Assembly (NCBI GenBank): GCA_017609105.1
Contig: JAFCEQ010000009.1
Coordinates: 1 to 45,297 of the forward strand
DNA: 45,297 nt
From: Candidatus Parvarchaeota archaeon
Lineage (GTDB): Archaea > Nanobdellota > Nanobdellia > JAFCGN01
Direction of reading: 5' to 3'
Shown: positions 20,917 through 33,086 of the stretch, in pieces
Numbering within the stretch: position 1 is the stretch's first letter
Layout: each line of letters begins with the position of its first letter
The notes under the pieces: model-generated
Told to the model about the DNA's origin: nothing
Database searches by the model: none
What the model saw: only the letters and a program-made list of their open reading frames with translations
Translations under genes and position numbers: made by a program

Positions 20917-22821
20917 TTAAGTTCTTTTTTTTGGTTTGTTCACTGCGTACAAGAAACCAATAGTGATGCCTATGAAAAGCATAATAGCTTGAATGAATAA
21001 TTGATTCTTATTCGCTTCGCAAGTTATTGGTTTAATAATATAGTTTTCATTCGGAGGGTTAAGCTCATTATTTGAGTTAAGCATTGCTTGAATTATTGCA
21101 GTAGAAATCTTAGAATATTGTTTTGCATAATTAAGGAATACAAGAGCTTGTGCTGGCGCTGTTTCATTAAAAGCATTAGCGTATTCAAGATAACTGATTG
21201 CAAGAAGAGGGATTAAACCATTTTCTTCCGCGCTTTTAATAGAAATCTCCACATCAATTATATCATCATTTATTTTATTTGAAAGCGTTTCATTCGTTAA
21301 ACCTCTTGTTTCCATAGCAAGGTTTGCTTCTGCTTTTGCTTCCACTGCTTCAAACAAAGCGTACGCGTAATCTTGTTTTGAAAAAGCTTCATTAGCGCTC
21401 TCAAGATGGTTTTCTGCTTCTGTTAAAAAAGCATTATTACTAACTGTTTTAGCATAAGCTATTGTATTGCTTGCTTCTGAAATTCTTTTTAAAGAGAGTT
21501 CTCTTAATCTCGTGTTATTAAAAGTGATATTCATATCTCCTTTGAAAAAGCTTGTTAAATTCGCCCATTCATTAGCAGTTAATATTCTTACTTGAGAAAA
21601 GGAAGCATAATAAATAGCAGAAGAATAATCTTTATTATAATAATCCTTGTACGCGTTATCAAGCATTTTCTCTGCTTCCATTATCCTGTTTATTGCTACA
21701 ACAATTGATTCAACATCGTTTATGTCATCAAAGATTCTTGTTTGAAGAAAATCAGTTTGCGTTATTGTTATGTTTTCTTTTAATTCATCAAGCATTTTTT
21801 CAATAAATAAGATGTTTTCAGAAGAATAATAATTCAACAAGTTCTCTGCGTAAGTTGAGAATACTAATGAATTTACTGCAAAACTTGCTCCAGAATAATA
21901 GGATTCATCTTCATAGAATTTTTTTGCATTATTCAGTTTTTCTTCAGAAGTGTTAAGCAAGGCATTCATTTCCTGTGATTGCGAGTAAGATAATTTCATA
22001 GAGGAAATGTTTTCGCTAAGAATTTGAAGTTTGGTTTCAGATTTTTCAATCAAATCCTCGCACATGTTTTTCATTGTTTTTGAATAAAGTTGTTTATCAA
22101 TTTTTTTTGTTTTTTTCTGTTTTATGATTTCATAATTTGTAGCATGCTTAAAAGCGTCTTCAATTGTTCTAACAGGAACAACAGTTAAATTCCAATGCTC
22201 TTTTGAATAAGCAACTAAATCTATTGGAACCATTTGAGTTTCTTTAACTAAAGGCACTTGAGACAAAATAGTTGTTTTCTCAACATAAACAGTTTCTTGT
22301 CCTGTAGGAATAATCATCACATCAGCTCCTTCTTTTGAAGCAGCTTCTGCTTTTGCAAGAAGACCTCCAACAGAACCAATAGTTCCATCAGGATTTATTG
22401 TGCCTGTTATCATTACATTAGAGCCAACAGAAATATTTGTGAGCGCTGCTAAAGTAGCAACAGTCATTGCTGCACCAGCGCTTGGACCTCCAATCATTGG
22501 GAATTGTCCTCTAATCACGTAAAAAAAATCATATTTACTGCAATCAATGCCTAAAATATCGCAACTAACTTCTTGGCTTAATCTCGCGCTTGCTTGAGTA
22601 TCAATTTCTGTAAGAGGCATTGTATCAACAAAAACTCTTCCATTCCCATTTGTTACTTCAACTGTTAAATCAGCGGCAACGCCTTCCTCGCCTTTTCCTG
22701 TTTGTCTTACTCCAAGAATCTTAATATTAACTTTTCTAAGTTCTTGCGCTTTGGCAAATGAGAAAGCAAAAACAATAAATGCTAATAATAAAAAAATCTT
22801 TATTGTTTTAGTATTTTTCAT
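20917..22821 (-). CDS. Secreted, membrane-anchored S16 (Lon-like) serine protease lacking an AAA+ domain
   Basis: Signal peptide; GGPSAGAAMTVA (Ser) and GGLLAKAEAA (Lys); helical repeat region; C-terminal TM. Confidence 0.88.
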   Translation of the reverse strand: MKNTKTIKIFLLLAFIVFAFSFAKAQELRKVNIKILGVRQTGKGEEGVAADLTVEVTNGNGRVFVDTMPLTEIDTQASARLSQEVSCDILGIDCSKYDFFYVIRGQFPMIGGPSAGAAMTVATLAALTNISVGSNVMITGTINPDGTIGSVGGLLAKAEAASKEGADVMIIPTGQETVYVEKTTILSQVPLVKETQMVPIDLVAYSKEHWNLTVVPVRTIEDAFKHATNYEIIKQKKTKKIDKQLYSKTMKNMCEDLIEKSETKLQILSENISSMKLSYSQSQEMNALLNTSEEKLNNAKKFYEDESYYSGASFAVNSLVFSTYAENLLNYYSSENILFIEKMLDELKENITITQTDFLQTRIFDDINDVESIVVAINRIMEAEKMLDNAYKDYYNKDYSSAIYYASFSQVRILTANEWANLTSFFKGDMNITFNNTRLRELSLKRISEASNTIAYAKTVSNNAFLTEAENHLESANEAFSKQDYAYALFEAVEAKAEANLAMETRGLTNETLSNKINDDIIDVEISIKSAEENGLIPLLAISYLEYANAFNETAPAQALVFLNYAKQYSKISTAIIQAMLNSNNELNPPNENYIIKPITCEANKNQLFIQAIMLFIGITIGFLYAVNKPKKRT

Positions 22822-22981
22822 TATTCATCGCCAAAAATAATTTTTTGCATTAATCAAGTCATGATTATGTTTTTAATCAATTATTTTTTAATCATTCATT
22901 TTTAATTATTCTTTATTTCTAATTATTCTTTTATTATTTAATATTGTTTTCTATTTCAATGTGTTTTAGAAATTTTAATGA

Positions 22982-23070
22982 ACGGTCAGTGATCACCTCC
23001 TAATCCGTCATAGGAATTAATGCTTTAAAGCATTATTAGTCCTAGGATCACGCCAATCAGCATCATCCCG
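22982..23070 (-). ncRNA. Candidate structured small RNA, box C/D-like, strand tentative
   Basis: GC-rich island in AT-rich spacer; minus-strand ATGATGC (23060-23066), ATGACGG (23005-23011), CTGA (22986-22989); 18-nt perfect palindrome 23018-23035; no ORF. Confidence 0.5.
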
Positions 23071-23132
23071 CTTCATTAATTATTTCAATATTTGTTTTAT
23101 TTTTAAACTTTTATTTTAAAAAATTTTTTTAA

Positions 23133-23747: not shown

Positions 23748-24275
23748 TTATGGTTTTTTCCAATGTATTTCATAATAAGTTATGTCTCCTTCGTCATCAA
23801 CAATTCCTATTAATAGTTTTTTTCTAACACTATGAGCAACTCTATTCATTGCAGCGAATTTTCTCCAATCAAAACTTTCAGCTTCACTAACAGCAAAGAG
23901 TATCCATGGTGCGTGCGTTTTTCCTGGTTCGCCTCCTCTATCATACACTCTGAAATCTGCTCCGTATTTGAAAGCTGTTTTTGTTATGTATCCCCTGCTT
24001 CTTATGTCTTTATAAACAAGATATCTTATGTAAAATCTTGGTTCTATTCTTGTTGCTCTGCGAATAAAACTTTTTGTTGTTAGTGGTTTTTTTTTGAAAT
24101 CAATGATTTCAATCTTGTTTTTTTCCATTAAATAAAGTGCTTCTATTAAACTAAGAATGAGTTTTTTATTTTCTAATACTCCGAATTTTCCACGATTGTA
24201 AATAGAACTTGCTGTTTTTTCATCATCAATTACTACTTTTTTCTTAATGAGCATGCCTTTTGGTTTTTTAGTCAT
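23748..24275 (-). CDS. endA: tRNA-splicing endonuclease EndA
   Basis: FRVYDRGGEPGKTHAPWILFAVSE ... AHSVRKKLLIGIVDDEG with catalytic Y, H, K. Confidence 0.94.
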   Translation of the reverse strand: MTKKPKGMLIKKKVVIDDEKTASSIYNRGKFGVLENKKLILSLIEALYLMEKNKIEIIDFKKKPLTTKSFIRRATRIEPRFYIRYLVYKDIRSRGYITKTAFKYGADFRVYDRGGEPGKTHAPWILFAVSEAESFDWRKFAAMNRVAHSVRKKLLIGIVDDEGDITYYEIHWKKP

Positions 24276-32872: not shown

Positions 32873-33086
32873 TGGGGTCGGAGGGATTTGAACCCCCGCC
32901 AACGGGTATCTCCGCGATAATACTAAAACAATGGTTTAGTACTTCGCTGCTCCAGCAAACACTTCATTGGTTCAAAAAAATTTTTTTAACCTCAGTTAAC
33001 CTTCTTTATCACATTTTTTGCGTTTAGTGAAATTATTAATTTTTTTCTCTGGAGCCCGGTATCCTACCAGGTTAGACGACGACCCC
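32873..33086 (-). tRNA. tRNA-Trp (anticodon CCA) with a 141-nt intron (32908-33048)
   Basis: Exons 33049-33086 and 32873-32907; acceptor GGGGTCG/CGACCCC; T-arm GGGGGTTCAAATCCCTC; loop CTCCAG^A; intron after anticodon+1; central helix CTCC/GGAG with 3-nt bulges AGA and ATA. Confidence 0.88.

Follow-up and report, generated by a model that had tools for sequence, protein, structure and literature searches.

A probable archaeal box C/D sRNA gene with predicted guides to helix 44 and the 3' tail of 16S rRNA

The minus strand of a short GC-rich block in a contig of a Candidatus Parvarchaeota archaeon (45,297 nt, hereafter the window, one contig of a 688-kb, 49-contig genome) most probably is an independently transcribed gene for a box C/D sRNA, that is, a guide RNA for fibrillarin; judging from sequence comparison, we put the probability of this identification at about 0.88. 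One of the two predicted guides is complementary to the 3' tail of 16S rRNA, including the anti-Shine-Dalgarno, and the other to a strand of helix 44 (h44). A sequence-only reading of this DNA had offered, as the first of two alternatives, a C/D-type sRNA directed to the 3' end of 16S, and this alternative is now backed by homologs in a sister genome of the same genus, in Ca. Jingweiarchaeum tengchongense and in Altiarchaeota, as well as by the presence of the fibrillarin and Nop5 genes, which adjoin on a single contig of the host genome (contig C12, 6000-7276).

Architecture of the putative sRNA gene

The GC content is ~0.40 inside the block vs ~0.08-0.14 in the flanks, as expected of the compact GC-rich element in an AT-rich spacer that had been described there, although the range originally given for it, 22982-23070, is off by one base: the string GCGGG...CTGACCG starts at 23071 and ends at 22983 on the minus strand. 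When both strands are folded, the minus strand comes out ahead, with a fold stronger than those of all dinucleotide shuffles (z = -4.0, compared to z = -2.8 for the plus strand). The following features are recognized, all on the minus strand:

22972-23079, minus: whole conserved unit, the putative C/D box sRNA gene including the terminal stem; 90% identity to the sister, flanks diverged
23100-23112, minus: probable BRE/TATA box, AAAAG-TTTAAAAA, read directly from the sequence; its centre precedes the terminal stem by ~25 nt
23068-23079, minus: 5' arm of the terminal stem, UUAAUGAA-g-CGG, pairing with 22975-22985
22975-22985, minus: 3' arm of the terminal stem, CCG-UUCAUUAA, the partner of the 5' arm
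23060-23066, minus: box C, AUGAUGC, 6/7 to the consensus RUGAUGA; invariant in the sister
23047-23055, minus: predicted D' guide, UGGCGUGAU, pairing with GUCACGCCA of 16S helix 44, one pair being G-U
23043-23046, minus: D' box, CCUA, degenerate; placed by aligning homologs (AUGA, CUGA), +/- one nucleotide
23013-23042, minus: expanded D'-C' hairpin, GGACU...palindrome...UUCC, the sole variable part of the unit
23005-23011, minus: box C', AUGACGG, degenerate; invariant in the sister
22991-23001, minus: predicted D guide, AGGAGGUGAUC, the complement of the 16S 3' tail GAUCACCUCCU, with the anti-Shine-Dalgarno included
22986-22989, minus: box D, CUGA, identical to the consensus; a single nucleotide separates it from the guide in all homologs

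A k-turn formed by boxes C and D can be recognized by GA in both boxes, a U-U pair, and a Watson-Crick pair between the sixth nucleotide of C and the first of D (PMC7994747). AUGAUGC and CUGA, the same two motifs that had been singled out as boxes C and D from the sequence alone, show all these features and are unchanged in the sister: a CGG stem is followed by a 3-nt bulge (GAU) and then by G-A, A-G, U-U and G-C. The predicted k-turn is closed by the terminal stem UUAAUGAA-CGG/CCG-UUCAUUAA, which joins the two boxes.

The internal motif is less regular. The C' box suggested earlier, ATGACGG, is invariant in the sister and aligns with the C' boxes of the homologs but is degenerate with respect to the consensus, and for the D' box, CCTA (or the tetranucleotide one base over) is the most likely assignment, rather than CTAA. 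The resulting C'/D' pair, AUGACGG/CCUA, corresponds to AGAUGAU/AUGA, GUGAUGA/CUGA and GUGAAGA/CUGA in the compact homologs, where the D'-C' loop is 3-5 nt long vs ~30 nt here. Taken alone, the RNA can fold with hairpins that cover both guides, and a free 4-way cloverleaf fold of the element is thermodynamically good; we set the cloverleaf aside because the compact homologs have no space for its hairpins.

A BRE/TATA-like sequence, AAAGNTTTAAAAA, is kept in the window and in the sister ~25 nt before the stem and on the same strand, and TATA-like sequences lie at comparable distances in the sister (AAAGATTTAAAAAC) and in Jingweiarchaeum (AAGATTTAAAAG), which is consistent with transcription of the sRNA from a promoter of its own.

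Complementarity of the two guides to 16S rRNA

The host assembly contains no 16S gene, and the target was read in the same-genus sister genome, in which the 16S 3' end is GGATCACCTCCTTA. The 11-nt perfect complement to the 16S 3' end that the initial inspection had pointed out holds there, and the energy of the D guide duplex was reached by 0 of 200 shuffled guides in a search of 16S plus 23S; the same duplex search gave no confident 23S target for either guide. The window contains a single exact occurrence of AGGAGGTGATC, at 22991-23001 on the minus strand, with no 1-mismatch matches and six other matches, each with 2 mismatches. The D guide sequence, which stops one nucleotide short of box D, is identical in all four homologs. 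Counting five nucleotides from box D (N+5) leads to C1473 of the sister 16S, which we take to be C1533 in E. coli numbering.

Since the plus strand here reads GATCACCTCCT, the block could in principle specify a plus-strand small RNA that mimics the 16S tail, the second alternative of the sequence-only reading, or contain a stray Shine-Dalgarno. The latter would have nothing to serve, given that the motif, taken as a Shine-Dalgarno, is not followed by any ORF, as had been stated at the outset and as is borne out by reading the window; the former fits poorly with a promoter, k-turn, guides and homologs that all read on the minus strand, and with the stronger fold of that strand. We give hardly any credence to either version.

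The other guide in the predicted sRNA appears to be directed at a different part of the same molecule. With the sister 16S as the target, UGGCGUGA(U) pairs with GTCACGCCA in helix 44, a match that corresponds to E. coli positions 1405-1413 (8 core pairs, 1406-1413) and thus to the decoding site. This is the best site for the D' guide across the small and large subunit rRNAs of the sister. The duplex (8+1 nt) was matched by 20 of 200 shuffles and, taken alone, is not extreme; we accept h44 targeting because the homologs carry the case, helix 44 being the best 16S site for the D' guide in all of them.

Initially, the second arm had been thought to pair with the 16S tail as well, via GTGATCC. This pairing is at chance level, with 140 of 200 shuffles doing equally well, and GTGATCC as a guide upstream of CTAA was rejected on these grounds; the actual match of this arm is that of TGGCGTGA to helix 44. 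The comparisons support targeting of the h44 decoding site by the upstream guide, as opposed to a second pairing with the 16S tail. CTAGGACTA matches 16S over 9 nt at E. coli ~801-809; this match overlaps the proposed boxes and is probably due to chance. The N+5 rule predicts 2'-O-methylation of two nucleotides, C1409 and C1533 in E. coli numbering. A D' box shifted by one base, which is the arrangement in one Altiarchaeota sRNA, would move the predicted D' target to A1408.

Homologs and guide-target matching

In the sister genome (GTDB: Ca. Parvarchaeota archaeon Meg22_810_Bin_165), the element lies between the same two genes and shows 90% identity, with the flanking spacer barely alignable. 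Alignment of the minus strands shows that GGGATGATGCTGATTGGCGTGATCCTAGGACTAA and TCCTATGACGGATTAGGAGGTGATCACTGACCGTTCATTAA, which cover the boxes and the guides, are unchanged, whereas the central loop has diverged. The pairing potential is retained: GGACU and AGUCC are paired in the sister D'-C' hairpin, the CGG arm of the stem reads UGG, so that a G-U pair replaces C-G, and the terminal stem is longer by species-specific AGG/CCU. A covariance model run against 378 genomes of the class matched only the window and sister copies, and a BLAST search with the whole element against 93 relatives found only the sister; neither search reached further because divergence is faster in the scaffold than in the guides. 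In the sister, the 16S and 23S genes are unlinked, being located ~19 kb apart on opposite strands of a single contig (G001:C17).

Homologs were instead recovered with a pattern that left the D' guide free and required only the tail guide, box D and part of box C: among the 378 genomes of the class, besides the window and sister copies, it detected an sRNA, TGATGATGATGGCGTGATATGATAAAAAGATGATTTAAAGGAGGTGATCTCTGA, in Ca. Jingweiarchaeum tengchongense, a member of another family, and the reversed-pattern control over the same genomes gave zero hits. The Jingweiarchaeum sRNA is a compact, near-canonical C/D RNA with the identical D' 9-mer at the same place, and the best duplexes of its guides in its own 16S are 14 bp (tail) and 11 bp (h44). 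It is located just upstream of a gene for a 630-aa Lon-like protein with 40% identity to the window protein (E = 1e-143). In the window, the Lon-like gene follows the sRNA, which lies ~150 nt upstream on the same strand, and this adjacency is common to three genomes. Given that the Jingweiarchaeum sRNA sits beside an orthologous Lon-like gene, common descent of these sRNAs is likelier than convergence. The window protein itself (20917-22821, minus) is a secreted or membrane Lon-like (S16) protein that matches the Lon_C profile in part only.

The same neighborhood could suggest a cis-acting k-turn element, namely, a 5' leader that binds L7Ae and controls the Lon-like gene downstream of it. The short same-strand distance in the window and the adjacency maintained in three genomes would fit, and regulation of k-turn-containing leaders by archaeal L7Ae is described in PMC5539422 and PMC6298567. 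However, the Jingweiarchaeum sRNA is in the reverse orientation and points away from the Lon-like gene, the Altiarchaeota sRNA sits tail-to-tail with its neighbor, an SMC-like gene, and a leader element has no need of two rRNA guides, so that we regard this explanation as very improbable.

A scan for both guides across 84,980 species genomes yielded 21 stretches, four of them archaeal, in the sister, in Jingweiarchaeum and in two Altiarchaeota; the bacterial matches, several of which are plainly in coding-like sequence, were taken as chance. The two Altiarchaeota sRNAs (L055 3540-3590 and L073 1457-1510) have the same target pair and CUGA at both D and D', and are arranged tail-to-tail with a gene, within ~5 nt of its 3' end. 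That gene is presumably SMC-like, a name that comes from our own reading of the protein sequence.

The D' guides of the Altiarchaeota sRNAs, GTGGCTTGA, carry GGCTTGA, and the h44 of a close relative's 16S reads TCAAGCC; for the two Altiarchaeota MAGs, as for the host, the assemblies lack their own 16S, and close relatives stand in. The guides of the sister and Jingweiarchaeum are GGCGTGA and match TCACGCC, which, among the 14 genomes of the class with a readable h44, is limited to these two (the counts are small); in a same-order genome without the sRNA, h44 reads TCAAACC. This correspondence supports the view that the Altiarchaeota h44 guide has changed to fit the 16S of that clade (CAC -> CAA).

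A tail guide in the sRNA format is rare, being found in at most 4 of the 378 genomes of the class and in 2 of the 10 genomes of an Altiarchaeota phylum set. A separate candidate in genome G040 (L052 1501-1568) is intergenic, with clean C/D boxes, an upstream TATA-like TTTATAAG, and a D guide that fits the 16S tail over 10 bp with one G-U; its D' guide differs and has no 16S match of note. Another candidate, in genome G262 (L051), lacks D'/C' boxes and was rejected.

Predicted action and relation to known sRNAs

The most likely action of the sRNA is ordinary C/D guiding; the steps that we infer, from transcription to RNP assembly, methylation and its consequences, would be as follows. Binding of L7Ae to the terminal C/D k-turn, and probably to the degenerate C'/D' motif as well, would be followed by recruitment of Nop5 and fibrillarin. 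Of the two guides, D would anneal to the 16S 3' tail and D' to the decoding-site portion of helix 44, on its 5' strand, and fibrillarin would methylate, at each guide, the ribose facing the fifth nucleotide counted from the box, at C1533 and C1409.

A different emphasis is plausible given that a single RNA would bind the decoding strand together with the anti-Shine-Dalgarno tail: the C/D sRNP might act mainly as an rRNA chaperone or checkpoint in late 30S maturation, with methylation playing a secondary part or missing at one of the sites. The h44 decoding strand and the 16S tail would then be unavailable to the partners that they have in the final structure, and the anti-Shine-Dalgarno and the 3'-end cleavage site would be masked. 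The two targets are ~110 nt apart, both in the late-folding 3' minor domain, and the 11-14 bp tail duplex extends to the mature 3' end, which in archaeal 16S is matured by Nob1 in vitro (PMC8339473); dual-guide chaperones have been proposed for other sites in the main text of PMC4644070. The proper N+5 geometry at both guides and the canonical box D fit methylation, and we consider a mainly chaperone role unlikely, if worth weighing. Somewhat more doubtful still is the specific version in which the RNP clamps h44 and the tail of pre-16S, blocking mRNA binding and 3'-end cleavage until assembly has been checked, and methylates C1533.

Read as a methylation guide, the sRNA shares with archaeal box C/D sRNAs boxes C and D, two guides at D' and D, N+5 spacing, rRNA targets (PMC7994747; PMC4644070, main text), a terminal stem, and fibrillarin and Nop5 in the genome. 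It is larger than the usual 50-70 nt, at ~110 nt with the stem and ~80 nt when counted from UGAUG through box D, and departs from the usual pattern in the ~30-nt central hairpin, the degenerate C'/D', the long terminal stem and the pair of targets; the ends of Nanoarchaeum C/D sRNAs, in contrast, are described as unpaired (PMC3491384).

The main text of PMC4644070 catalogues 489 archaeal box C/D sRNAs, among which predicted h44 guides are sparse. It gives A1408 as a predicted target in S. acidocaldarius and N. equitans, that is, the same h44 segment and the same or a neighboring target nucleotide as here, and the second guides of these sRNAs do not appear in that text. The Nanoarchaeum sRNAs sR15 and sR17, discussed there as proposed folding chaperones, likewise bridge two distant 16S segments, in their case helices 28 and 30, as opposed to helix 44 and the 3' tail. 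The pair of h44 and the 3' tail is absent from the main-text Table 3 of distant dual targets, and the main-text passages of that paper mention no guide to the 16S 3' tail. The class is known; in the main texts of the surveys, we found neither the dual target nor any guide RNA directed to the anti-Shine-Dalgarno tail.

Should both guides act as predicted, fibrillarin would be directed, in some DPANN archaea and Altiarchaeota, to the tail that recognizes the Shine-Dalgarno, and one RNA would tie that tail to the decoding site, with two exact predicted positions of methylation and a possible connection between maturation of the small subunit and recognition of mRNA.

In Rfam, no family scored above its gathering threshold over the element (the best sub-threshold score was 22.7 bits vs 60 required), and scans of the homolog loci gave zero matches. 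The Rfam scan of the window returned only tRNAs, one of which (32873-33086, minus; 37.8 bits) was missed by ARAGORN and spans 214 bases, probably with a long intron or insert inside. Two genes upstream of the sRNA, the window encodes a tRNA intron endonuclease with both Pfam domains (23748-24275, minus).
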